From: a bacterium
Lineage (GTDB): Bacteria > Verrucomicrobiota > Kiritimatiellia > CAIKKV01 > CAITUY01
Length of the DNA: 64,000 nt
Reading direction: 5' to 3'
Assembly (NCBI GenBank): GCA_037143175.1
Contig: JBAWZF010000001.1
Span: forward strand, 170,199 to 234,198
Position numbers and translations under genes: made by a program
Shown: positions 1,633-15,369 of the stretch, piece after piece
Layout: the number at the start of each line of letters is the position of its first letter
How positions within the stretch are numbered: the stretch's first letter is position 1
The notes under the pieces: model-generated
What the model was told of the DNA's origin: nothing
The model's input: only the letters and a program-made list of their open reading frames with translations
The model's database searches: none

Positions 1633-3015
1633 ATGAGCAATACAGCCATCACACCTGTCGGTCGAGGCGGATTTCAAACGGTCATGTTGAGCCCCAAAAA
1701 GGCGCCTCGTGCCTTGAAGTTAAAAAAGGCGAAACTCCTGATTCTCAGCAATAAGGAGAGTGGTCGTGAAGTTCCTGTCGATAAAGATGTGTTTACGATC
1801 GGGGCAGGTTCGCAGAATGATTTAATTATCACGGATGAGGCAGCCTCCCGCCGGCATTGTGAAATTCATCAGCGTGAAGATGGTTTTTTTCTGCGCGATC
1901 TGGGTAGCACGAACGGCACGATGGTGCAGGGCGTCCGGGTTTGTGAAGTGTATCTGACCCAGGGGGTGAAATTCCAGGTGGGGAAGACCCAGATGGTGTT
2001 CTGTCCGCTGCAGGAAACGATGTCCTATCCCTTAAGCCCCCATGAGAGTTTCGGGCGGTTAAACGGGCGGAGCACGGCCATGCGCCGGGTATTTCATCTG
2101 GCGGAAACGTATGCCAAAACGGATGCGGCTGTTTTGATTCAGGGCGAAACCGGGACGGGTAAAGAACTGCTGGCGGAGGCGTTGCATGCGTATAGTCCGC
2201 GAAGCAAAAAGCCTTTTGTGGTCATTGACTGTGCGGCGCTTGCCACCGGAGTTATTGAAAGCGAATTATTCGGGCATGCGAAAGGCTCCTTTACGGGGGC
2301 GGGTACCGAGCGGGTAGGGGCCTTTGAATCCGCCCATGGCGGAACGGTGTTCCTGGATGAAATCGGGGAGTTGGATCTGTCATTGCAACCCAAGTTACTG
2401 CGCGTTCTGGAGAAGAAGGAAGTCCGGCGGCTCGGGGCAAATACGGTGCGACCGGTGGATGTACGGATCATTGCGGCGACGAACCGGAATCTGGAGCGTG
2501 AGGTGCGTGAGGGGCGGTTCCGTGAGGATCTTTTTTACCGGTTGTCGATCGTCAAGATTGAGATGCCCTCGTTGCGACAACGGAAGGACGATATCCCCCT
2601 GTTGGTGCGCTGTCTCATGAAGGATCTGACAGGCTCCGATGATGTCACGATTTGGGCGGAGTTTGAGAAAAGCATGGATCTATTCCGGCAGCATGATTGG
2701 CCGGGCAATGCGCGCGAGTTGCGGAATGTGGTGGAGATGGGGGTCCGGGGGGCGGGTGGGGTGAGTAATCTGGGTGCCTTTCTCACATTGGGTCGGATGG
2801 GGGTGACGGAGTCTGGTGAGGGTCTGGGTAATATGGATGATAAGCCTTTCAAGGTGGCAAAGAATCAATTGGTCGACCACTTTGAGCGCGACTATATTAT
2901 CAAGTTGCTGGAGCGGAACAACGGCAACATTTCCCGCGCTGCCCGTGAAGCGCAGATCGAGCGCGCCTATTTGCAACGTCTGGTCCGCAAACATGAATTG
3001 AATGCAAAGGATTAA
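1633..3015 (+). CDS. FHA domain-containing sigma54-dependent transcriptional activator
   Basis: This 460-residue regulator has three parts. An FHA domain (about residues 35-125) carries the phosphothreonine-binding signature FTIGAGSQNDLIITD, SRRH and GSTNGT. A sigma54 AAA+ domain (about 140-375) has Walker A GETGTGKE (171-178), the sigma54-contact loop GSFTGA (218-223) and Walker B GGTVFLDEIGE. A Fis-type HTH sits at the C terminus (about 425-458, NGNISRAAREAQIERAYLQR). FHA in place of a receiver domain implies activation by Ser/Thr phosphorylation of a partner rather than by a histidine kinase. The ribosome site before ATG 1633 is weak, and ATG 1684 is an alternative start that keeps all domains. 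Its targets are unknown; I saw no clear -24/-12 promoter nearby. Confidence 0.92.
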   Translation: MSNTAITPVGRGGFQTVMLSPKKAPRALKLKKAKLLILSNKESGREVPVDKDVFTIGAGSQNDLIITDEAASRRHCEIHQREDGFFLRDLGSTNGTMVQGVRVCEVYLTQGVKFQVGKTQMVFCPLQETMSYPLSPHESFGRLNGRSTAMRRVFHLAETYAKTDAAVLIQGETGTGKELLAEALHAYSPRSKKPFVVIDCAALATGVIESELFGHAKGSFTGAGTERVGAFESAHGGTVFLDEIGELDLSLQPKLLRVLEKKEVRRLGANTVRPVDVRIIAATNRNLEREVREGRFREDLFYRLSIVKIEMPSLRQRKDDIPLLVRCLMKDLTGSDDVTIWAEFEKSMDLFRQHDWPGNARELRNVVEMGVRGAGGVSNLGAFLTLGRMGVTESGEGLGNMDDKPFKVAKNQLVDHFERDYIIKLLERNNGNISRAAREAQIERAYLQRLVRKHELNAKD

Positions 3016-3460
3016 AAAGCTGATGGGGTGTGGCTGTCCGGATCAAAGTCCATAGCCGCCCAGGAACTCCGTCATCATTCCTGAGTGCCGGGCGGTCAAA
3101 TTCAAGCCGGATAAGCAAATCAAGGCATGCGTCTTGAAGAGTTAGCTCCTTCTCCGGCATTCCGAGTTCCGCGTTGCACTGCGCCCCGCCGGTACAGTCA
3201 CAACCTTGGACCTCACGACCTCCGGACTGACCGTCCGCGGCTGCTCAAGCGCGCTTGGTCATGATCTGCCAACCGTAGTACCAGCCCAGGCCCCACTTTC
3301 CGCACACTCACGGTTCGCGCGGAATCGCGTTGAGAGCGGCAGGATGGAAATGACGGAGAAATTCAGGCGAATATACCCACGCGGTAGGGTTGTACCCCAT
3401 AGAACGAGGCCGAAGCTTAGACTAGTTTATCGAGTCATGGAAGAGTGGCAGGAAACCGGA
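3016..3460 (+). other. Gene-poor stretch with a dispersed repeat, probable remnant DNA
   Basis: These 445 bases separate the sigma54 activator from the first chemosensory fragment. No convincing gene is visible. Open frames on both strands resemble no family I recognise, although the minus-strand frame from about 3160 starting MPEKELTLQDACLDLL looks faintly protein-like. One inverted copy of the dispersed 18-base repeat lies at 3385-3402. The stretch marks the left edge of the accessory block. Confidence 0.6.
3385..3402 (-). repeat. Dispersed 18-bp repeat, copy A
   Basis: TAGGGTTGTACCCCATAG; read on the minus strand it is CTATGGGGTACAACCCTA, two changes from the consensus CTATGGGGTGTAACCCTA. 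GGG and CCC arms can form a small hairpin. See the other copies at 12274, 12800, 15821, 16130 and 52623. Confidence 0.7.
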
Positions 3461-3616
3461 ATGAGTTTTGAACCGACAACATCCATGCCTCCCGACGACG
3501 GGAGGCACATCGTCGTCATAAGGCTCGGCGATACTAGGATTGCCTTGCACCTTTCCGTGGTCGAGCGGGTGATCCGAGCGGTGGCCGTTACCCCGGTGGC
3601 CGATGCCCCATTCTGA
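3461..3616 (+). pseudogene. cheW fragment (first), N-terminal strand region only
   Basis: ATG 3461 follows GGCAGGAAACCGGA. The 51-residue product contains HIVVIRLGDTRIALHLSVVE followed by RVIRAVAVTPVADAP, a close match to the start of CheW adaptor proteins. These normally continue with about 100 more residues (an ILGVINVRG-type run), but here the frame stops at 3614-3616. The following 73 bases do not encode the missing part in any frame. CheW links receptors to CheA. Together with the cheR that follows, the position corresponds to wspB of a Wsp-like operon. It is truncated and cannot fold as a full CheW. An assembly error could produce the same picture. Confidence 0.75.
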
Positions 3617-3689
3617 TATATGACCTAGAGCGGTTCCTGCGAAAAAATGGTTCGTTTCTTTTCGATCACGTTGTGCCTGGAGTTCCGCC

Positions 3690-5165
3690 ATGAACACGGT
3701 TGCCATGAAACAAGATACGCTGGAGGCCGTAAGCGGTCTGATCGAACGGCGCCTGGGGCTCCATTTTCCATCTGAACGCCACGACGTTCTTGCCCGCGGG
3801 TTGGAGCGCGGCGGCGTGGAGATGGGCTTTGCCGATCCCGAGGCGTACGCGATCCGTCTTCTGGCCACTGGAATCACCCCAGTGGAACAGGACACCCTGG
3901 CACAGGCATTGACAGTGGGCGAAACCTATTTCTTCCGCGAACCTGCCGCTCTGAAAGCCCTTGAGGAGCACGTCCTGCCCGAATTGATCGCAGTACGCGG
4001 CAAAAGCGGGGAAAGGCGAATCCGAATGTGGAGCGCCGGTTGCTGTACTGGCGAAGAGGCGTATACCTTGGCCATCATGCTCACCCGGCTGATTCCTTCT
4101 TTGAGCGAATGGGACATCACGATTCTGGCCACCGACATCAATCCCGATGTCCTCAGCAAGGCCAGGGCCGGCCGATATCGGGAATGGTCGTTCCGGGGCG
4201 CGCCAGCGTGGCTCAAGACCGGCTATTTCAACAAGTCTGCAAATGATGAATACGAACTTGCCGCGCGCGTGCGGCAAATGGTCAGTTTCTCCTATCTGAA
4301 TCTCGTCGAAGACGTCTACCCGTCGCTGATGAATAATACGTCGGCCATGGATGTCATTCTGTGTCGAAACGTGATGATGTATTTTGCCGCTGACCGCGCC
4401 AAACTGGTAGTCGGACGATTCCACCGGGCGCTTCTGGACGGCGGCTGGCTTGTCATGAGTCCAAGCGAAGGCTGCCCCGGGAGTTCCGCTCTATTCGCCA
4501 GGGTGTCGTTCGACAACACCTCGCTATACCAGAAGAGTGGTGCCGTGGCGGTGCCCGTATTGCCGCCGCACGACCTCTCGGCACCCGACCGGATGGGCGC
4601 CTGCGTAATTACCGAACCGCCTCAGGCTCGCCGTGATGCGATCCGTGCGATATTACTCCCCACGGCACACTCGGAATCGCCCCTGGTGCCCGCGACGGAG
4701 GCGTACGCGCGCGCGGACTACGAAGCGGTCCTGAAGATCGCCGCCACCCTCCCGGAACCGGCGGTGCCCGTTCTCGTGCTGGCGGCTCGCGCCTGCGCCA
4801 ATCTTGGGCGGCTCGACGAAGCCCTTGCGTGGTGTCGAACGGCATTGGAACGTGACAAGATGCACGCCTCCGTCCACCACCTGCAGGCAACCGTTCTCGT
4901 GGCCAAACGCGACGGACCTGCCGCGCTGGAAGCGCTGAAGCGCGTACTGTATCTGGAGCCCCATTCCGTCCTGGCCCACTTCACAACGGCGAATCTCATG
5001 CTCCAGACCGGCGAACCGGCCAAGGCCATGAAGTACTTCCGTAAGACCATGAGTCTCCTCCGTGCGCTGGATGACAGTGCGGTGGTTCCCGACAGCGACG
5101 GCATGACCGCGGAAAGGCTGAAAGTCATTGTGAAACACATTCAGAAAAGTTTGGCAAGAACATGA
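3690..5165 (+). CDS. cheR: CheR-type chemoreceptor methyltransferase with C-terminal TPR region (WspC-like)
   Basis: This 491-residue protein begins with a CheR N-terminal helical domain (about 10-80). A SAM-dependent methyltransferase domain follows, with the binding loop WSAGCCTGEEAYTLA (114-128), LATDINPDVL (146-155) and ILCRNVMMYF (223-232). The C-terminal third (about 345-485) holds TPR-like helical pairs such as ARACANLGRLDEALAWCRTAL and ATVLVAKRDGPAALEALKRV. CheR-TPR fusions are typical of alternative (Wsp/ACF-type) chemosensory systems, where CheR methylates receptor glutamates. The stop overlaps the next start (ATGA, 5162-5165), so the downstream cheW fragment was translationally coupled. 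Codons are rich in G/C at third positions, unlike the ATP synthase genes. Confidence 0.92.
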   Translation: MNTVAMKQDTLEAVSGLIERRLGLHFPSERHDVLARGLERGGVEMGFADPEAYAIRLLATGITPVEQDTLAQALTVGETYFFREPAALKALEEHVLPELIAVRGKSGERRIRMWSAGCCTGEEAYTLAIMLTRLIPSLSEWDITILATDINPDVLSKARAGRYREWSFRGAPAWLKTGYFNKSANDEYELAARVRQMVSFSYLNLVEDVYPSLMNNTSAMDVILCRNVMMYFAADRAKLVVGRFHRALLDGGWLVMSPSEGCPGSSALFARVSFDNTSLYQKSGAVAVPVLPPHDLSAPDRMGACVITEPPQARRDAIRAILLPTAHSESPLVPATEAYARADYEAVLKIAATLPEPAVPVLVLAARACANLGRLDEALAWCRTALERDKMHASVHHLQATVLVAKRDGPAALEALKRVLYLEPHSVLAHFTTANLMLQTGEPAKAMKYFRKTMSLLRALDDSAVVPDSDGMTAERLKVIVKHIQKSLART

Positions 5166-5344
5166 GCACGGCAAGCCACACAGACCAAAGTATTCTCGAT
5201 GCGCGGGCCATGGAACTTGCACGGCCTCTTTTACGCAGGACAAGCGCCGAAGGGCATCTCGACGTTGTTGAGTTCCAGTTGGCTCACGAGTGCTACGCCA
5301 TCGAGAGCCGGTTCGTGGCGGAAGTGTTCCCCTCGGTATGTTGA
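5162..5344 (+). pseudogene. cheW fragment (second), truncated and joined to the receptor gene
   Basis: The frame starts at ATG 5162 inside the cheR stop and runs 60 codons. Its second half, DVVEFQLAHECYAIESRFVA followed by EVFPS, is the first CheW strand pair of a WspD-like adaptor (N-terminal extension plus CheW). After EVFPS the homology ends and a stop follows at 5342-5344. In the overlapping frame the sequence becomes the first membrane helix of the chemoreceptor. A deletion near 5330-5338 therefore seems to have removed most of cheW and the receptor start together. No intact cheW remains in the window. Confidence 0.75.
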
Positions 5345-7137
5345 TCGTGTTGATGGGTGTACTCGGCGGTTTGGCGGTCTGGCGCATGAACCTGGCCGCA
5401 GTCAGTTCAGCGGATCTGCCCGCTAAATTCGTCCCGGAGGTCATCGTTGCGCAAAAGGTGGCCACTGGCATCTGGTCGACACGGTTCAACATGCGCAACT
5501 ATACATTGACGGGCGATGAAGGCTTCCTGCTCAAAAGCCGCAAAGGGATTGCCGCATTGAAAGACGACCTCAAAGCAGCGGACGAACTCGCGAAGACATA
5601 TCCAGATCTCGTCGCCCTGCGCCAGGGCGTGGTTGACTCCAGAATCGCTTTGGACACGTGGGAGGCGGACACCGACAAGATGGAGTCCGAACGCAACAAC
5701 CTCAAGGTGCAGCGCGGACTGCTCGATGCGGCCGGCAAGGCCTACATGCTGGCATGCCAGACTATGCGGGCTTCGGAAGAAAAGGCGATGAAGACGGAAA
5801 TCGCCACTAACATGACCCCGGCCACACTGGACGAGCGGCTGATAAAACTCGGCATGGTTCAGAGGTTGAGAGACCATGGCATGGCCATTCAACTTAACAA
5901 CTTCAAGGCTCAGGCTGTGGGCGACATGGATGCCCTGCGCGATGTAATCAAGGACTTCGCTCCTCTCGAGGAAGCCTGCACTAGGTTGGAGCCGTTATTT
6001 CGCCAACAGGAGAATATTGACCAGTTGCACCAGCTCCGGGAATACGCGAACAGTTACAAGGCCGCCATGGAGGCGGTGTTGAAAATCCAACTGACCATCA
6101 ATGAACTCAAGGAGAAACTAGCCGATAGCGCGGAGGTGCTTGTGGCCAGGGGTGAAGGGGTGTCAACCGTTGGTCTGGGACATACAGCGAAGGCGGCGAC
6201 GGAGGGAGCGCAGCGTCTCAATGTCACGATTGTCATTCTGCTTGTGGGGTTGTTCGTCGCCCTGATCGCGGGAGTCGTGGTTGCATGGCTGTCCACGCGC
6301 GCCATTGCCGGGCCAATCCGCGAAGGGGCACAGGTGCTGGTCGCCGCTGCCGGTGAGGTATCCGCCACGGTCAGCCAGATAGCCGCCAGCGCCGGGGAGA
6401 CGGCCTCTGCTGTCGCTGAAACCAGTACGACGATCGACGAGGTTCGACAGACCGCGCAACTCGCAAGGGAAAGCGCGAAGGGCGTCTCGGACGGGGCCCA
6501 GAGCGCGGTGCGCACTTCGCACACGGGATCGGACGCCGTACGTGCCAGCGTGGACGGCCTGAAGCGGATCGGCGAACAGATGAAGGCGATCACGGGCTCG
6601 GTCATGAGCATGAGCGAGAAGAGCCAGGCGATCGGCGACATCATCACCACCGTCAACGATCTGGCCGAACAATCGAATCTTCTCGCCGTCAATGCCTCCA
6701 TGGAGGCGGCCCGCGCAGGCGAACAGGGCCAAGCCTTTGCATCGGTGGCCGAGGAAATCCGTAGCCTTGCCAATCAATCCAAGGAAGCGACCAAGCAGGT
6801 GAGGGCGATTCTGAGTGACGTTCAGAAGGCGACCAGCACGGCCGTGCTGACCACCGAACAGGGCGGCAAGGCCGTGCAGGAGGGGCAGAAACTCGCCGAC
6901 CAGGCCGCGGAAGCCATCAACACCATGGCGGCTGCCATCACGCAGTCCGCCCAAGCCGCCATCCAGATCGCCGCATCAAGCCAACAGCAACTGGCCGGCA
7001 CGGAACAGGTTGCCAACGCCATGGGGAACATCAAGGAAGCCAGCCTGCAGAACCAGGCGAGTACCACGCAACTGGCTACGGCTGCACGTAACCTGCAGGA
7101 TCTGGGGATGAACTTGCGGAAACTGGTGGAGGGGTAG
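5338..7137 (+). CDS. Methyl-accepting chemotaxis protein, N terminus truncated
   Basis: From ATG 5338 the product is 599 residues. It starts inside a membrane helix (MLIVLMGVLGGLAVWRM); the short cytoplasmic lead normally found before TM1 is missing. A helical periplasmic sensor follows (about 20-295). TM2 is VTIVILLVGLFVALIAGVVV (about 297-316). The long cytoplasmic coiled coil has the conserved hairpin tip EQSNLLAVNASMEAARAGE and FASVAEEIRSLANQSKEATK. Alternative GTG 5290 would add 16 residues encoded by the cheW fragment. The ligand is unknown. It presumably feeds the CheA encoded downstream, but insertion and function depend on whether the shortened TM1 still works. Confidence 0.85.
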   Translation: MLIVLMGVLGGLAVWRMNLAAVSSADLPAKFVPEVIVAQKVATGIWSTRFNMRNYTLTGDEGFLLKSRKGIAALKDDLKAADELAKTYPDLVALRQGVVDSRIALDTWEADTDKMESERNNLKVQRGLLDAAGKAYMLACQTMRASEEKAMKTEIATNMTPATLDERLIKLGMVQRLRDHGMAIQLNNFKAQAVGDMDALRDVIKDFAPLEEACTRLEPLFRQQENIDQLHQLREYANSYKAAMEAVLKIQLTINELKEKLADSAEVLVARGEGVSTVGLGHTAKAATEGAQRLNVTIVILLVGLFVALIAGVVVAWLSTRAIAGPIREGAQVLVAAAGEVSATVSQIAASAGETASAVAETSTTIDEVRQTAQLARESAKGVSDGAQSAVRTSHTGSDAVRASVDGLKRIGEQMKAITGSVMSMSEKSQAIGDIITTVNDLAEQSNLLAVNASMEAARAGEQGQAFASVAEEIRSLANQSKEATKQVRAILSDVQKATSTAVLTTEQGGKAVQEGQKLADQAAEAINTMAAAITQSAQAAIQIAASSQQQLAGTEQVANAMGNIKEASLQNQASTTQLATAARNLQDLGMNLRKLVEG

Positions 7138-7197
7138 AGGGCAGTGGACAGTGGACAGAGGGCAGTGGGCAGAGGGCAGTGGGCAGAGGGCAGAGTT
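7138..7197 (+). repeat. Short tandem repeat between receptor and cheA
   Basis: The receptor-cheA gap consists almost wholly of imperfect 7-base units, CAGTGGG/CAGAGGG/CAGTGGA, repeated about eight times. The array is purine-rich and may supply the Shine-Dalgarno for cheA. Because it allows an upstream GTG frame (7144) in phase with cheA, copy-number change could alter translation. Similar GCAGTGGGCAGAGGG-type arrays are known as intergenic clutter in other bacterial genomes (from memory). Confidence 0.7.
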
Positions 7198-9498
7198 ATG
7201 GCAAAGGCAAACGATAACGACGCTCTGAAAAGCATTATGGTGACGTTCAAGGCGGAAGCCGAAGAACACCTCTTGGCTATTTCAGAAGGATTGACCGAAC
7301 TGCGACGGTTGCCGCCGTCCGGCGCGCGTGCTGAGCTTGTGGAGCGAATCTACCGCGATACGCACAGTCTCAAGGGCGCGGCCCGTTCCGTGGGCCTGGC
7401 GGCGATCGAGGCGATCTGCCAAGCGCTTGAGGACGTGTTTGCCACCGTAAAGAATACGGAACTGCCGGTCTCGGACGGCCTCCGTGCAGCCGTGCAGCCG
7501 GTTCTTGAAGAGGTTCACCGCCTGGTCGAGGGCCGGAAGACAATGGCCGCAAACACCTCGCAAATCGTTGCCGCCCTGAAGGCGGCGGTTGATTCGCAGC
7601 AGGCAACCGTGACGCCGATATCCGAACCTGAAGCGCCCGTTTCGAGACAGCTGTCTTTGCAGACCGGCGCAACACGCTCCGCCGCTGCAGTTGAAACCGA
7701 GGAACCCGGTGCGACCAATCATGAACCTCTTGCCGACACCGTGCGGGTCCCCGTCGCACGGCTTGAGGCGCTGCTCCGGTTGGCCGAGGAGTTGCTGCGT
7801 ATCGAGTTGATGTCGGCACAGAGATTGTCCGAAACCGCAACGCTCCTGGAGATGCACGGGGCGTGGACAAAACGGTGGAATGGACTGGTTTCCGCCAGCG
7901 CGTTGTCAGGGCGGGGCCTTGGCACAAGCGGTGCCGCCGTCGAACCGGAGCCCGCACCCGGCCCGGAGGAATGTTTCGCGGACGCCGGACGGGAACTGTC
8001 CACCTTCCACAGTGCCCTCAAGGGATTCTCGACACGGCTTGACGTGGACCGCCGCTGGACAGCCTCGATACTGGATCATCTCCTGGCGAGCGCCAAAGAA
8101 GTCCTTATGCTCCAGTTCTCGGTAATGGGGCAGATGCTGACACGCATGGCCGCGGAACTGTCACGCGCTGAATGCAAACAGGTGGCACTTACCGTACACG
8201 GAACCCACATTAAGATCGAAAAGCGGGTTCTTGACGAGATGAAGGACCCGCTGATTCACCTGATACGGAACTGTGTTGGGCATGGAATTGAGCCGGCCGA
8301 GGTGCGGCGGCGTTTGGGCAAACCTGAAAGCGGGACGATTACGGTATCCCTTTCACAACAGGACGGAAACAAGGTCGAGCTCTGCGTCGAGGACGACGGT
8401 GCGGGGATTGACTGCGCCAGGGTGAAAGCGTCGGCGATCAAGAGTGGACTGCTGGATGCCGCCGAGGCGGGAAACCTGGATGACGGTGAGGTCCTTCCGC
8501 TGATCTTCCGCTCGGGTGTGTCGACCAGTCCGATCATTACCTCCCTGTCCGGCCGCGGTTTGGGACTGGCCATCGTGAGCGAGAAGGTTGAGAAGTTGGG
8601 CGGGCGTGTCAGGGTGGACTCCACTCCCGGTCAAGGTACGCGAATCCGTCTGCTCCTGCCGGCGACGTTGGCAACGTTCCGTGGAACGCTTGTGCGTGCC
8701 GGCGACCGGTCGTTTGTCATGCCTACGGACAGCGTCGCGAAGGCCATCAGGTTCTCCGCCGATCAGATCCATTCGGCCGAAAACAGGGAGACGATCGCAT
8801 TCACCGGTCGGTCGATCTCGTTTGTCAAGCTGGCGGACGTTCTCGGCATCCCCGTCCGGCAGACTGGGGAGAACAAGGGTCAGGTGACCGCCCTTGTGGT
8901 TCATTCGGCGGGACGCCATATCGGCTTGGGTGTCAGTGAGGTTCTCGGGGAGCAGGAGATCCTGGTCAGGTCGCTCGGACCACAGTTGGCCAGTGTCACA
9001 AACATCTCGGGCGCCGCCATGCTGGGGTCCGGGGCGCTCGTGCCGATCCTGAATGTCGCCGACCTGATGCGCTCGGCCAGCGTTTCCGATGGCGCGCCGC
9101 GCCCCGCCGAGCATGCGCCTGACGCCTCGGGCGAAGTCAAGTCCCTGCTCGTCGTGGAAGACTCCGTTACCTCCCGCGTGCTGCTGAAAAGCATCCTGCA
9201 GGCGGCCGGATACGAGGTCACGACCGCCGTGGACGGCATGGATGCGTTCACCACGATGCGGACGACGCGCTTTGACCTGGTAGTCTCCGACTTGGAGATG
9301 CCGCGAATGAACGGGTTCGAACTGACCATGCGGATTCGACAAGACGCTGCGTTCAAAGAGATGCCGGTGGTGCTGGTCACGGCCAGGGAATCGCGCGAAG
9401 ACAAGGAGCGCGGCATCGAGTGTGGTGCCAACGCGTACATCGTGAAGAGCAGTTTCGACCAGACGAACCTGCTGTCCGTGATCGAGGGGCTGTTATGA
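7198..9498 (+). CDS. cheA: CheA-type hybrid histidine kinase with C-terminal receiver (WspE-like)
   Basis: From ATG 7198 the product is 766 residues. The HPt domain carries DTHSLKGAARSVGL, with phospho-His about residue 56. A linker, a dimerisation region and a HATPase follow (N box LIRNCVGHGIE, G1 DDGAGID, G2 GRGLGLAIV). A CheW-like domain (about 480-610) precedes a receiver (about 640-766) with LLVVEDSVT, phosphoacceptor Asp in VVSDLEMPRMNGFEL and Lys in YIVKSS. CheA-REC fusions are characteristic of Wsp/Frz-like alternative chemosensory pathways. Its own CheW-like domain might partly compensate for the lost CheWs. GTG 7144 would add 18 residues encoded by the tandem repeat, and I consider it unlikely. 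The stop overlaps the cheB start (ATGA). Confidence 0.93.
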   Translation: MAKANDNDALKSIMVTFKAEAEEHLLAISEGLTELRRLPPSGARAELVERIYRDTHSLKGAARSVGLAAIEAICQALEDVFATVKNTELPVSDGLRAAVQPVLEEVHRLVEGRKTMAANTSQIVAALKAAVDSQQATVTPISEPEAPVSRQLSLQTGATRSAAAVETEEPGATNHEPLADTVRVPVARLEALLRLAEELLRIELMSAQRLSETATLLEMHGAWTKRWNGLVSASALSGRGLGTSGAAVEPEPAPGPEECFADAGRELSTFHSALKGFSTRLDVDRRWTASILDHLLASAKEVLMLQFSVMGQMLTRMAAELSRAECKQVALTVHGTHIKIEKRVLDEMKDPLIHLIRNCVGHGIEPAEVRRRLGKPESGTITVSLSQQDGNKVELCVEDDGAGIDCARVKASAIKSGLLDAAEAGNLDDGEVLPLIFRSGVSTSPIITSLSGRGLGLAIVSEKVEKLGGRVRVDSTPGQGTRIRLLLPATLATFRGTLVRAGDRSFVMPTDSVAKAIRFSADQIHSAENRETIAFTGRSISFVKLADVLGIPVRQTGENKGQVTALVVHSAGRHIGLGVSEVLGEQEILVRSLGPQLASVTNISGAAMLGSGALVPILNVADLMRSASVSDGAPRPAEHAPDASGEVKSLLVVEDSVTSRVLLKSILQAAGYEVTTAVDGMDAFTTMRTTRFDLVVSDLEMPRMNGFELTMRIRQDAAFKEMPVVLVTARESREDKERGIECGANAYIVKSSFDQTNLLSVIEGLL

Positions 9499-10580
9499 AT
9501 GCTGACGTCAAGAAAACAAAGGTTCTCATCGTCGACGATTCGCCGACGGTTCTGGAACACCTGACGCGCATCTTCAACGCGACAGAACGGCTGAAGGTGA
9601 TCGGCACGGCCCGCAACGGCAGGGAAGCGGTTGAGTTTGTGCACCACATACGACCCGACATCATCACCATGGATGTTAATATGCCGGTGATGAACGGGCT
9701 TGAGGCCACGCGCGAGATCATGTCCACCGATCCTATTCCCATCGTGATTCTCAGTGCGAGTTGGGAACCGGGTGAAGTTCAGAAGAGTTTCTTGGCCGTA
9801 GAAGCCGGGGCGCTGGCTTCGTTCGCCAAACCGTCCGGGGTGGCGAGCGCAGACAGCGCCGAATCCATACGCGAGCTGGTGGCCAATATCGAGGCTCTGG
9901 CGCGCATCAAGCTGGTGCGCAGGCGCGGCCCTTCGACATTTTCGTCACTCAACGAAAACAGAGCGGCCTCTCCGGTCAATAACGGCCGCCGGCTTCGGAA
10001 CCCGGGGATCGTAGTCATCGGTGTCTCCACCGGAGGGCCACCGGTACTCCAGTGCATCCTGGCCGGACTCGAAAAGGACTTCAGGTTCTCGGTCCTTGTC
10101 GTGCAGCACATATCGAAAGGCTTCACCCAGGGACTCGCGGACTGGCTTGGCGGCACATCGGCACTTCCCGTCGCGCTCGGAAGGCAGGGCGATCTGCTCA
10201 ACCCCGGGCAGGTCATCATTGCCCCGGAAGACCACCACATGGAAGTCGGCGCCGATGAGCAAGTCGTCCTTACCGTGGATGAGCCGGAACAGGGCCTGCG
10301 GCCCGCAGCGTCGCGCTTGTTCCATTCCGCAGCCGCCCTCTATGGCAACCGCACCATCGCGGTGCTTCTTACGGGCATGGGAAATGACGGCGCACGCGAA
10401 ATGCTGGATATCAAGAACCAGGGCGGAGTGACGATTGCGCAGGACGAGAAAAGCTGCGTTGTCTATGGCATGCCCAAAGCCGCCATACAACTGAATGCGG
10501 TTAAGCACGTCCTGTCTCCGGAGGAGATTGTAAAGATGCTGAACCGGCTGTCCGGGGAGATGGAGAGGACAACACTATGA
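9495..10580 (+). CDS. cheB: CheB receptor glutamate methylesterase (WspF-like)
   Basis: ATG 9495 overlaps the cheA stop. The 361-residue protein has an N-terminal receiver (phosphoacceptor Asp60 in ITMDVNMPVMNGLEA; acidic pair VDDS 13-16; Lys112) and a C-terminal methylesterase domain. The catalytic triad is visible as Ser178 (GVSTGGPP), His205 (VVQHIS) and Asp298 (LTGMGNDGA). It removes methyl groups added by CheR and so sets adaptation of the receptor encoded upstream. All key residues are present, in contrast to the damaged cheW genes. The stop overlaps the next gene (ATGA, 10577-10580). Confidence 0.94.
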   Translation: MNADVKKTKVLIVDDSPTVLEHLTRIFNATERLKVIGTARNGREAVEFVHHIRPDIITMDVNMPVMNGLEATREIMSTDPIPIVILSASWEPGEVQKSFLAVEAGALASFAKPSGVASADSAESIRELVANIEALARIKLVRRRGPSTFSSLNENRAASPVNNGRRLRNPGIVVIGVSTGGPPVLQCILAGLEKDFRFSVLVVQHISKGFTQGLADWLGGTSALPVALGRQGDLLNPGQVIIAPEDHHMEVGADEQVVLTVDEPEQGLRPAASRLFHSAAALYGNRTIAVLLTGMGNDGAREMLDIKNQGGVTIAQDEKSCVVYGMPKAAIQLNAVKHVLSPEEIVKMLNRLSGEMERTTL

Positions 10581-12256
10581 AAAAGCAAGAAACGAACGCA
10601 ATGCCTCTTCCAAAAGACGTGCTGATTGTCGAAGACAGTGCCACCCAGGCCGCCGTGCTCAAGAGCGCTTTGGAAGGGCACGGCTGGTGCGTCCGCGTCG
10701 CCCGCGATGGCGTCATGGCGCTGGAAATGGCCCGCCTCAGCAAGCCGGATATCGTGGTCAGCGACATTCGTATGCCGAAAATGGACGGTTACGCCCTCTC
10801 AAAAGCGATCAAGACCGACCCGGCCCTGCATGATGTGCCGGTGGTGCTGTTCACTTCGCTGTCACAGTCGAGCGATATCGTTCACGCCATCAACAGCCGG
10901 GCTGACTACTATTTCCTGAAGCAGTGGGATCATGACGATCTGATTGCCAAAATCGCATCCGTTCTGGATACGTACCAACCGTTGTCCGACCATGGCCAGG
11001 ACGGACTCACTGTGCGTTTCGAGGGGAAAGCCTACACGATCGAGGCCAATGCTCATCAGCCACTGAGCCTTCTGCTATCCACCTACGAGATTGCGGTTCA
11101 GCAATCCCTGAAGCTTGCGGCTGCCCGGGACAAATTACGGGAAGCCAGCGAATTCGCCGAGAGCGTCATCAACACCGTGCGTGAACCCCTGATTTCTTTG
11201 GATCAAGACCTCAGGGTGGTCGCCGTCAACCGCTCCTTCTGTGCATTCTTCAAGGTAAAACCCGAAGAGACGGTGGGACAGCTTGTCTATGATCTGGGAA
11301 ATGGCCAGTGGAATATTCCCAAACTGCGGGAACTGCTGGAAACCATCCTTCCGCAAAAGACAACCTTCGATAACTATGAGGTGGAACACGATTTTTCCAC
11401 CATTGGCCGGCGCATCATGCTTCTGAATGCCCGGCAAATTCAAAGAGGGTTTGGCAAGGAACGGATCATCCTTCTGGCTATCGAGGATATTACCGAGCGT
11501 AAGGAGATAGAAGCCGGCTTGGAAAACGCCCATGAAGAGTTAAGTCGAGCTGCTCGGGCAAAAACGGAATTCCTGGCCAATATGTCGCATGAGCTCAGGA
11601 CACCGCTTAACTCCATTAACGGTTTCTCTGAGGTATTATACGACGAGACGTTCGGACCGCTTAATGAGAAGCAGAAAAAATACGTTACCAATGTTCTAGT
11701 CAGCGGAAAGCACCTTATCTTACTGATTAATCAGATACTTGATATGGCAAAAGTTGAGTCCGGAAAGATGACGCTGGCTTTATCCAGCTTACCCCTGAAA
11801 AGCCTGTTACATGAGATGGCGCTGCTGGTAGCGGATGTGGTCGGCAAGAAGAAACTGCAGATGGTGCTCGAAATAGCCGAAGATCTGCCGTCAATTGACG
11901 CGGATGAGCTCAAGGTGAAACAGATCATTTACAACCTGCTTTCGAACGCAGTTAAGTTTTCAGCCGATGGTGGCACCATTGGCATGCAGGCAAGGAAAGC
12001 TGATTCAGAGATAGAAATAGTGGTTTGGGACAAGGGGATCGGTATCGCACCTGAAAACATGGAGAAAATATTCGAAGGTTTTTTCCGTGTCAATACCCCC
12101 TATTCCCGGGTAACTGAGGGGACCGGACTGGGTTTGCCGCTCTCTAGAAAACTGGTTGAGCTGCATGGCGGGAAGCTTGCTGCAGAATCAGAGGGGCTGA
12201 ATAAAGGCACCTCGGTCCGATTTACTCTGCCTATTGTAGCCCGGAAGGAACCCTGA
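10577..12256 (+). CDS. REC-PAS hybrid sensor histidine kinase, last gene of the chemosensory operon
   Basis: This 559-residue protein has a receiver (13-130, VLIVEDSAT, phosphoacceptor Asp63 in VVSDIRMPKMDGYAL), a PAS domain (about 190-310) and a HisKA domain with His338 in NMSHELRTPLNSI. A HATPase follows (N box IIYNLLSNAVKFS, G1 WDKGIGI, G2 GTGLGLPLSRKL). In Wsp operons the output is a REC-GGDEF diguanylate cyclase. Here a REC-fed kinase takes that slot, so the signal probably passes from CheA to this receiver and on by phosphorelay. The convergent minus-strand genes (12886-15728) hold receivers and DHp-like domains without ATPase and are natural partners (inference). Copy B of the dispersed repeat begins 17 bases after the stop. 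Confidence 0.92.
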   Translation: MKKQETNAMPLPKDVLIVEDSATQAAVLKSALEGHGWCVRVARDGVMALEMARLSKPDIVVSDIRMPKMDGYALSKAIKTDPALHDVPVVLFTSLSQSSDIVHAINSRADYYFLKQWDHDDLIAKIASVLDTYQPLSDHGQDGLTVRFEGKAYTIEANAHQPLSLLLSTYEIAVQQSLKLAAARDKLREASEFAESVINTVREPLISLDQDLRVVAVNRSFCAFFKVKPEETVGQLVYDLGNGQWNIPKLRELLETILPQKTTFDNYEVEHDFSTIGRRIMLLNARQIQRGFGKERIILLAIEDITERKEIEAGLENAHEELSRAARAKTEFLANMSHELRTPLNSINGFSEVLYDETFGPLNEKQKKYVTNVLVSGKHLILLINQILDMAKVESGKMTLALSSLPLKSLLHEMALLVADVVGKKKLQMVLEIAEDLPSIDADELKVKQIIYNLLSNAVKFSADGGTIGMQARKADSEIEIVVWDKGIGIAPENMEKIFEGFFRVNTPYSRVTEGTGLGLPLSRKLVELHGGKLAAESEGLNKGTSVRFTLPIVARKEP

Positions 12257-12885: not shown

Positions 12886-14514
12886 TCAACGGGCAGTGAG
12901 GAGTTCCCTATCCGGTGCCAGGCCTTTTGGCACTCCTACAATCACGATCAGCCTATCCAGAAGCTGTTTTGCGCTCGCGCCACTCTCTTCCGCCATTTGA
13001 AACATTTCTTTTTGCTGTTCATTGACCTGGCCAAGATAGCCAGCGGCCGCCATTTGGATCACGCCACTCATCACAGTAATAGGCTGACACAACTCCTGAA
13101 GGATTTCGGCAAGGATTACCAGGAGGGCCGCCAGGGTCTGTTTGCGTTTAGTCCGTTCCGGCTCTTCCGGCTCTTCCAGGTCTTCCGATGCTTCGATATA
13201 GTCCTGAATCTGTTTGCCAAGATTCTCGATTTTCTTCCCGGTTTTGCTCGCAAGGGTCCCGGAAACCTTATTCACCTGCGACACAACATCAGTGATCGCA
13301 GTTGGATCCGACTTGCCGGCACTGACCATTTCATCCAATTTCGTGAGAAGGGCGATAATCTCACTCACACCGCCGGGGGCGGAGACCTCCGCAGCCTTCA
13401 TCAGGAGCGTCCGCCAATCGCTGGACGATATCCCTTCCGCAGAGAGCTGCTTACCCAGGCCGCGTTCAACTGCTTGTTCTTCGCCCATAGCCTTGATCTG
13501 CTGCACGAGATCTTTCTCGGCCCTGGCAAACGAAGCGTATTTCTTCGCGTACTCGGATGCGATGGCCTTGATTTCAACTTCCCCCAGCATTTCATTGATG
13601 GCCGTTGAGATCGCGATCTCCGTACCGGGCGCGGCAGGAGGTTCGAGCCCCTTCACGCTGCGCAGGATATCCTTCCCCAGCAACAGCAGGTTTTTCTTCA
13701 AGGCGGTTTTCCGTTTTGCACTCGCAATCGGCTTCTCCTTCAGCAGAGCGTGACGAACCCGGTTGAGACGCGCGACAACAATGTCAGCCAGAGATTCCGG
13801 CTCACCAGATGGCGTCATTTTCCTGGGTTGTACCACCGCCATCTCCATGATGAATCGGGCAAGTCGCTCGGGGTCCGAAAGCAACATGGTTGCCAGATCT
13901 TTGGACGCCTGCTCACCGTCGACAAGGCCATCGCTCTTCAGAAACGCCATAATCTGCTCAACGACGCCTTTCTTGCCTTCCTCGGCTTTCGCATCTTCAA
14001 TGAGACTTTCCGGGGCTTTCTCAGCGTTCTTGAGAACAACCTCCTCATGTTCAGTAACCGTGCGATACGTCACTGTCAATGCGGAGATGTGCTCGACGCC
14101 ATGCTCCGCCAAGGCCTGTCGCATACCCTCACCTTCAGAATCCGCAACCGGCACGCCTGTGAACATGATCTCGATCAGTTTGCCATACTCTTCCCGCGTC
14201 AGACCCTTTAACATGGCAAGTCCGGCTAGTTCAACGTCGGTTAACCGTTTGGCAAGGACATTGATGAAGGATTCGGTCGTTCCCGCCGGCTCGCCCTCGA
14301 CAAGCAGCACACCGTCAGCCATATCAAAGTTGATGCGCTCACAAATCTCCAGTATCGGCGCCAGTAAATTGTAAGACTTGTCAATAGATTCAATGGTGAG
14401 TTTATGATGCGGACCATACATGTCGCTGTTTGCGAAAATCCTCCCCATCAGCCGCAACAACTCTCTGCTGGCGGCCACCGGGCGGTTTGATCCTGTTGAG
14501 TTATCCACGTTCAA
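12886..14514 (-). CDS. Large protein with C-terminal DHp-like (HisKA-like) helices and no ATPase domain
   Basis: This 542-residue protein has no signal peptide or membrane helix. The N-terminal 130 residues (ASRELLRLMGRIFANSDMYG, LLVEGEPAG, KRLTDVELAGLAML, LTREEYGKLI) resemble a domain seen at the front of some HD-type signalling proteins. The middle (about 150-440) is charged, Lys/Glu-rich and helical. The last 80 residues (LAEILQELCQPITVMSGVIQ, GQVNEQQKEMFQM) align by eye to a HisKA dimerisation helix pair, but the His of the H box is replaced (ELCQP where kinases have ELRQP or HELRTP). No HATPase follows. It ends a minus-strand set with two receivers and a DHp-only protein, so a docking or scaffold role in a phosphorelay is a reasonable guess. 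Confidence 0.6.
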   Translation of the reverse strand: MNVDNSTGSNRPVAASRELLRLMGRIFANSDMYGPHHKLTIESIDKSYNLLAPILEICERINFDMADGVLLVEGEPAGTTESFINVLAKRLTDVELAGLAMLKGLTREEYGKLIEIMFTGVPVADSEGEGMRQALAEHGVEHISALTVTYRTVTEHEEVVLKNAEKAPESLIEDAKAEEGKKGVVEQIMAFLKSDGLVDGEQASKDLATMLLSDPERLARFIMEMAVVQPRKMTPSGEPESLADIVVARLNRVRHALLKEKPIASAKRKTALKKNLLLLGKDILRSVKGLEPPAAPGTEIAISTAINEMLGEVEIKAIASEYAKKYASFARAEKDLVQQIKAMGEEQAVERGLGKQLSAEGISSSDWRTLLMKAAEVSAPGGVSEIIALLTKLDEMVSAGKSDPTAITDVVSQVNKVSGTLASKTGKKIENLGKQIQDYIEASEDLEEPEEPERTKRKQTLAALLVILAEILQELCQPITVMSGVIQMAAAGYLGQVNEQQKEMFQMAEESGASAKQLLDRLIVIVGVPKGLAPDRELLTAR

Positions 14515-14519
14515 GTTCC

Positions 14520-14978
14520 TTAAATTTCTTTACCTGCCACCCAGGCGATGATCTCTTTTACTAGAGCTTTCTCGTTTTCATCCGGAATAGCGGGAGGTTG
14601 TTTCAATGCCTGTTTTATCTTTTCCAGGAGGGTGTCTACCACGAAGGGCTTGATAAGAAACGGGTAATTCAACGCCTGGAGAGAATCCTTGACCTTTCTC
14701 TCCTGCTCAGGCCCGACCTCATCAAACCCGGTTATGAAAAGGACGGGAATTCGACTGGTGCGCAATGATGTCCTCAAGTTCTCATAGACTTTAAACCCTC
14801 CGCCACCGGGAAGCCTGATGTCCAGAATAATGAGATGGGGTCTTTTCTCCTGCGCTATGGACACAGCCGTCATCGCGTCATAGGCCGTCGACACTTCATA
14901 GTTGTTGGCCATCAAACGAGTACTTAACAGGTACACAAAATCAACATCGTCATCCACAATTAGAATTCGCTGTGACAT
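14520..14978 (-). CDS. Single-domain response regulator
   Basis: From ATG 14978 (preceded by GGAAAGGAGAACTCCTC) the protein is 152 residues and is a stand-alone receiver. It has acidic residues in LIVDDDVDF (7-15), phosphoacceptor Asp53 (IILDIRLPGGGGF), a Thr in LFITGF and Lys110 (FLIKPF). A 30-residue helical tail follows. It has no DNA-binding or enzymatic output. The start lies inside the upstream receiver gene (29-base overlap), so the two are translationally coupled. Single-domain receivers commonly shuttle phosphate or bind a target protein, here perhaps the 542-residue protein whose gene starts 5 bases downstream. Confidence 0.88.
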   Translation of the reverse strand: MSQRILIVDDDVDFVYLLSTRLMANNYEVSTAYDAMTAVSIAQEKRPHLIILDIRLPGGGGFKVYENLRTSLRTSRIPVLFITGFDEVGPEQERKVKDSLQALNYPFLIKPFVVDTLLEKIKQALKQPPAIPDENEKALVKEIIAWVAGKEI

Positions 14979-15369
14979 GAGGAGTTCTCCTTTCCAACAG
15001 ACTTCCAATTCCTTCCAGAAGAGATCCCGGATCGCACGGTTTGGCCATGTATCCTTCGGCACCGCACTCTGCAGCCTGATCCTTGTCGACCTGCCGACTG
15101 TTGGCTGACATCACAATGATGGGAATCTCACGAATGGACACTTCCGACTTCAACCTTCGACACACAGCACATCCATCCAGATCCGGCAACCCCATATCGA
15201 GCAGGATCAACGCGGGCTTCTCCCGTAGTGCAAGTTTGATGGCGGTCTCCCCATTGCTGGCCGTGACCACCTCGTAGCCGTTGCTCCGCAACCGCGCTCC
15301 CACCAGAAGCAGCAGATCGTCATTATCATCAACCATAAGAATTTTTGCGACTGGTTGCCCCTTTTTCAT
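14950..15369 (-). CDS. Single-domain response regulator
   Basis: This 139-residue receiver has LMVDDNDDLL (acidic pair 14-15), phosphoacceptor Asp58 (LILLDMGLPDLDG), a switch Ser in IIVMSANS and Lys110 (GYMAKPCDPG). A short tail with no output domain follows. It overlaps the DHp-only gene upstream by 4 bases and the next receiver gene by 29 bases. Two adjacent stand-alone receivers with one DHp-only partner suggest a branched relay. The partner kinase with ATP-binding capacity is not in this operon. Confidence 0.9.
   Translation of the reverse strand: MKKGQPVAKILMVDDNDDLLLLVGARLRSNGYEVVTASNGETAIKLALREKPALILLDMGLPDLDGCAVCRRLKSEVSIREIPIIVMSANSRQVDKDQAAECGAEGYMAKPCDPGSLLEGIGSLLERRTPHVTANSNCG

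Follow-up and report, generated by a model that had tools for sequence, protein, structure and literature searches.

A conserved family of HisKA-type hairpin proteins lacking the phosphoacceptor His and the ATPase domain, with a possible role as receiver phosphatases

The window analysed here is a stretch of 64,000 nucleotides of bacterial DNA, in which four closely spaced genes follow each other on the minus strand: a gene for a HisKA-only protein, two single receiver genes and, last, the target gene, encoding a protein that ends in a HisKA-like DHp hairpin without His (Table 1). Because of this close spacing, the four genes are probably an operon with the target gene at its end. The first-pass annotation had placed the target at these coordinates with a length of 542 residues; the open reading frame was found there, on the minus strand, but the length is likely to be 540 residues, as the GTG at 14508, which lies 7 bases after AAGGAA, is a likelier start than the TTG at 14514. 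The plus strand from 1633 to 12256 carries an alternative chemosensory cluster (FHA/sigma-54 activator, CheR-TPR, MCP, CheA with a receiver, CheB, and a receiver-PAS-kinase), which adjoins the operon and points towards it.

Table 1. Coordinates of the target gene, its parts and its neighbours in the window
Feature	Position	Strand	Remarks or basis
His-less DHp protein gene (target)	12886..14514	-	542 aa from TTG; likely start GTG 14508 (540 aa)
Single receiver gene, directly upstream of target	14520..14978	-	Start ATG 14978; 11 nt from likely GTG start of target
Second single receiver gene	14950..15369	-	Overlaps both neighbours
HisKA-only protein gene, 120 aa	15366..15728	-	HELRTP intact, no ATPase domain; ATGA overlap with second receiver gene
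N-terminal alpha/beta domain, residues 13-146	14077..14478	-	Model; nothing matched in Pfam, PDB sequences or fold searches
Helical middle region, residues 174-445	13180..13995	-	AlphaFold2 model
DHp helix 1, residues 451-490	13045..13164	-	AlphaFold2 model, Pfam HisKA, PDB profile
DHp helix 2, residues 499-526	12937..13020	-	AlphaFold2 model, PDB profile
Gln473 codon, phosphoacceptor His position	13096..13098	-	Alignment
Gln477 codon (+4), position of HisKA phosphatase Thr/Asn	13084..13086	-	Alignment, conservation

The last ~90 residues of the target protein are homologous to HisKA DHp domains, which bears out the earlier description of a His-less HisKA-like C terminus. The assignment rests on Pfam and on PDB-sequence profile searches, since the local HisKA, receiver and ATPase profiles were built from seeds of the window and then widened on the same loci, so that the local HisKA profile absorbed the target family. 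Pfam HisKA (PF00512) matched residues 468-522 of the window protein with an E-value of 1.1e-4 and 22.6 bits, below the gathering score of 26.9, and 38/40 relatives were matched at E<=0.01, the lowest E-value being 1.4e-10. When 28 C-termini were made into a profile, the seven PDB sequences retrieved at E<=0.01 were all from histidine kinases, with 4jas_A (1.2e-5) at the top. Residues 468-487 of the target protein read LAEILQELCQPITVMSGVIQ; when aligned to HK853, whose phosphoacceptor and +4 residues we take to be numbered H260 and T264, Q473 falls on H260 and Q477 on T264. The AlphaFold2 model (30 sequences, mean pLDDT 83.4) consists at this end of a long helix, a turn and a second helix; both helices have a pLDDT of about 80-87 and form a two-helix antiparallel arrangement in the single-chain model, with Q473 in mid-helix. 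Structure prediction, proposed earlier as a check on the C terminus, thus gave a hairpin and not an unrelated fold. The pTM of the whole model is 0.44, so the arrangement of its domains is unreliable.

The middle ~300 residues had been noted as helical and unlike any family recognised, and this held: the region is modelled as helical and no Pfam or NCBIfam family matched over the cut-off. The linker that joins it to the N-terminal domain (150-177) is poorly modelled. Modelled alone, the N-terminal domain reached a pLDDT of 86.7 and a pTM of 0.79 and had no fold match (Foldseek best E 1.7; VIA best Z 4.0); these empty match lists do not establish a new fold. The profile search suggested for it in the first-pass annotation matched nothing known in Pfam or among PDB sequences. 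With the whole model, Foldseek gave no match at E<=0.001, and VIA-align gave Z under 8, to unrelated helical proteins. A module of like wording ("YPPGHP...") presumably occurs at the N terminus of other bacterial HEAT/HD-GYP proteins. The modules are mixed among relatives: the N-terminal domain and the hairpin occur with most of the middle region missing (L056, L059, L105-L108, L119), the N-terminal and middle regions occur without a hairpin match (L060, L100-L103), and the N-terminal domain is found on complete kinases (L063, L065, L066, L068, L070). These complete kinases all match the local ATPase profile and each is followed by a single receiver gene; PAS, HisKA and HATPase domains were identified in the two that were scanned with Pfam. 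Three further sequences (L057, L067, L069) were dropped as forms without hairpin, because L057 and L069 break off where their contigs end and L067 contains a stop within the part that matched.

The search with the single protein gave matches in 41/97 genomes of the group of the window, some through the N-terminal domain alone. A 40-sequence profile matched 85 of 288 genomes of the phylum, many of the matches being ordinary HisKA domains hit by its C-terminal part; the matches at E<=1e-80 came from 30 genomes, 29 of which share at least the class of the window, the remaining one lying outside that class. Because a first alignment of 40 sequences was too diverged for scanning, 13 closer sequences were used for the genome_contigs scan, which yielded 26 relatives, 24 of them bearing Kiritimatiellota, Lentisphaerota, Verrucomicrobia or other PVC names. 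One relative lies on a contig of a viral collection. The genome of the window holds a second member (L021, positions 67-1800 of contig C79, QEIMQP), on a short contig with no recognised two-component neighbour.

In 68 non-redundant members, the His position is occupied by Gln (60), Leu (6), Arg (1) or Glu (1), and never by His, while E is found at +1 in 62, Q at +4 in 67 and P at +5 in 63. Fourteen of these rows came from the scans of genome_contigs (13) and of the viral collection (1), and the pattern of the former demanded QEL; the remaining 54, obtained by searches without that demand or from the window, likewise include no His. Three of the 14 (L084, L093, L098) lie on contigs as long as ones also matched in the 288-genome search. 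As a control, His was read in 19/19 genuine HisKA domains from the neighbourhoods, with T or S at +4. It was also read in 29/30 other HisKA hits of the genome of the window, outside both family and window; all 30 were read by Pfam coordinates, since the local HisKA profile found only part of them. The exception (L149, C29:19474-19674) is a weak hit with VVREMKTP, i.e. Arg at the His position, and is possibly an unrelated second kind of His-less DHp.

The Pfam matches to 40 members did not include HATPase_c, neither the ATPase nor the receiver local profile matches any of the 68 ORFs, and each ORF ends at most 22 residues past the hairpin match. Pfam gave no PAS match in the window protein or among the 40 members. 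One branch separated the 68 His-less hairpins from the 19 His-bearing ones in two quick trees; its SH-aLRT support was 98 with 63 columns and 96 with the 60 that remained when the H, E and +4 columns were masked, on few columns and long branches. Ka was lower than Ks over the whole gene in 7/7 close pairs (Ka 0.08-0.23, Ks 0.33-1.85). As judged from these sequences, the His-less DHp protein is a conserved family and not one decayed gene, and the loss of the phosphoacceptor His is fixed across it, mostly to Gln; the first-pass annotation had anticipated neither this nor the phosphatase option that Gln at +4 opens. That the target is a decaying histidine kinase, i.e. a pseudogene, is hardly credible. 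The adjacent HisKA-only gene has the look of a truncated kinase, which would favour it, but the same architecture and the missing His recur across many species, with Ka below Ks in 7/7 pairs. No description of the family was recognised in the literature searched, judged mostly by title or abstract and with subscription journals outside its scope, and no paper was found on Spo0E "SQELD".

A receiver, HisKA or ATPase gene is present within two genes at 17/68 loci. Kinase or receiver genes occupy 28/240 positions within two genes of the target, against 3/164 positions at a distance of over four genes (Fisher p 1.9e-4, the loci not being independent). At the other 51 loci neither a kinase nor a receiver gene lies as close as two genes, and several of their contigs end close by. 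At ten loci (L025, L026, L027, L029, L045, L079, L082, L083, L084, L097) the next gene encodes a hybrid kinase with HisKA, ATPase and receiver domains, which in seven of them (L025, L026, L029, L045, L079, L082, L097) is followed by a protein of 266-287 aa, hereafter REC-pseudoREC; in L045 a 97-aa receiver fragment stands between the two. The first receiver of this protein keeps its Asp and the second has Lys (6/7) or Asn (1/7) at that position; two receiver stretches were identified by Pfam in the three that were scanned (L026, L045, L082), and no output domain was found. The next gene after it is NrdR-like in 6/6 inspected of the seven loci, as seen by eye and checked with Pfam in L026.

The hairpin closest to that of the window (47%) belongs to L084, from a Kiritimatiellae MAG, where the order is a receiver, the target, a receiver-PAS-kinase-receiver and a receiver. 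The target copy of this locus is split over two overlapping frames (7977-8582 and 8566-9645), through an assembly error or a real frameshift. The L084 kinase (9608-11866) has the composition receiver-PAS-HisKA-HATPase-receiver, and its DHp groups with that of the HisKA-only protein of the window (SH-aLRT 96); the HisKA-only gene therefore looks like a remnant of a kinase of this type, and its product like a truncated kinase or a phosphotransfer protein.

Of the hairpin positions covered as far as 526 (458-491 and 496-526), Gln477 has the lowest entropy (0.11 bit); P478, L479, G527 and P529 are about as conserved, P529 being invariant. Gln477 is kept in the six members that lack both Q473 and E474. 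Small residues are kept at the hairpin positions that we assume to face the receiver. One HisKA domain (L146) has Gln at +4 beside an intact His, so Gln477 may be inherited or structural, and the change from Thr to Gln at +4 was dropped as a stand-alone argument for an innovation of the family. The same combination is known from the FixL/DctB-type motif HExNQPL.

With no His in 68 members, phosphate cannot be accepted on His, as the first-pass annotation had proposed; lacking both the phosphoacceptor His and the ATPase domain, the target protein is read as kinase-dead, a protein built on a HisKA DHp hairpin that cannot autophosphorylate. With its His replaced and no kinase half, it probably acts on the phosphate of partner proteins by reading or removing it, not by adding any. 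The hairpin would dimerise, and it quite likely docks receivers, to judge by the two receiver genes upstream and the kinase or receiver neighbours at 17/68 loci.

The reading that we prefer, with a probability of roughly 0.4, is that the target is a receiver phosphatase. Phosphorylated receivers would dock on the ancestral DHp face under the control of the N-terminal and helical regions, and Gln477, in the position that Thr/Asn occupies in HisKA phosphatases, would keep in place the water molecule that attacks and removes the receiver phosphate; the likely targets would be the two receivers encoded just upstream. This reading is suggested by the retention of Gln at +4 in 67/68 members, even in the six without Q473 and E474. 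In the available parts of PMC3510030, HisKA kinases need the Thr/Asn at +4, but not the acidic neighbour, for their phosphatase activity, and RapH manages this activity with a single Gln; in HisKA_3, according to the part seen of PMC7005713, Gln does the phosphatase chemistry and His has no part in it. Other published results argue against it, as far as the excerpts available go: in CrdS, the substitution N375Q, which puts Gln at this very +4 position, left no phosphatase activity that could be measured (PMC3510030), HK853 was a weaker phosphatase with H260A (PMC5727384), the DHp of EnvZ alone had no apparent phosphatase activity in mammalian cells, sequestration being offered instead (PMC8971529), and DivL, whose DHp also lacks His, does not act as a phosphatase (PMC4211667). 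The 51/68 loci without a kinase or receiver gene within two genes, the Gln at +4 beside an intact His in L146, and the similar conservation of P478, L479, G527 and P529 also count against a phosphatase. A fuller scheme can be put forward tentatively: PVC bacteria of the Kiritimatiellota/Lentisphaerota kind may have made single-purpose receiver phosphatases out of a histidine kinase whose His was replaced, mostly by Gln, and whose ATPase domain was shed, with the single amide of Gln477 retained for catalysis; these would be gated by an undescribed N-terminal sensor and would act on the receivers of the neighbouring hybrid kinase and of the REC-pseudoREC protein.

The main alternative is possible but doubtful, namely that the hairpin binds a phosphorylated receiver without chemistry, whereupon the middle and N-terminal regions would change and act on another protein, such as the neighbouring hybrid kinase. 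DivL offers the precedent: in the portion of PMC4211667 available, it has Tyr for His, binds DivK~P, has no kinase or phosphatase activity, does not need its CA domain and controls the hybrid kinase CckA. The hybrid kinase that directly follows the target at ten loci would fit such a role. However, the target has neither a PAS nor a CA domain, and this explanation by itself does not account for Gln at +4 in 67/68 members while the His position varies.

It is rather improbable that the hairpin acts as a heterodimer partner, forming a pair with a neighbouring kinase through the DHp of the latter, or else with the HisKA-only protein, so as to block or bias it. RetS and GacS are the model for such pairing, and the kinase directly downstream at ten loci and the HisKA-only protein in the operon of the window are compatible with it. 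Most loci have no adjacent kinase, however; the residues kept go beyond the dimer core to positions presumed to face the receiver; and the part consulted of PMC8971529 describes heterodimers of different kinases as rare.

Still less probable is a structural relic, i.e. a hairpin whose sole use is to let the N-terminal and middle regions dimerise, with no two-component contact. A two-component neighbour within two genes is missing at 51/68 loci, and some relatives (L060, L100-L103) have these regions without the hairpin, as such a relic would allow; the near invariance of surface position 477, the small residues at the receiver-facing positions and the enrichment of kinase and receiver genes nearby speak against it.

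The family poses two questions: whether a HisKA hairpin can serve as a phosphatase only or as a reader of phosphorylated receivers, and whether Gln at +4 can do the chemistry done elsewhere by Thr/Asn. The N-terminal domain and the REC-pseudoREC protein add two more components to the picture. In kind, the family belongs to the pseudo-histidine kinases, which are already known; few have been described, and DivL of Caulobacter is the one found to be studied in depth. In both, a HisKA-type DHp has its His fixed as another residue and is linked to a hybrid kinase, but DivL, in the accessible text of PMC4211667, has Tyr and bears PAS and CA domains, whereas the target family has mostly Gln, no CA domain, no PAS match and an unmatched N-terminal domain. 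RapH, CheX and CheZ resemble the target in that one amide would position the water and no kinase activity is possible (PMC3510030, in the parts available); they are other protein families, and the likeness is one of putative mechanism only. With HisKA kinases such as HK853 the hairpin is homologous and E at +1 and Pro at +5 are mostly kept, but His and the ATPase domain are absent in 68/68 members. ChpT and Spo0B are phosphotransferases with DHp-like hairpins outside ordinary kinases, as in the target family, but theirs carry a phospho-relay His, which is found in 0/68 members here. The new part is the form that is both His-less and ATPase-less: a DHp without His, fixed in at least 68 non-redundant sequences, with the ATPase domain lost, and standing partly beside receivers.
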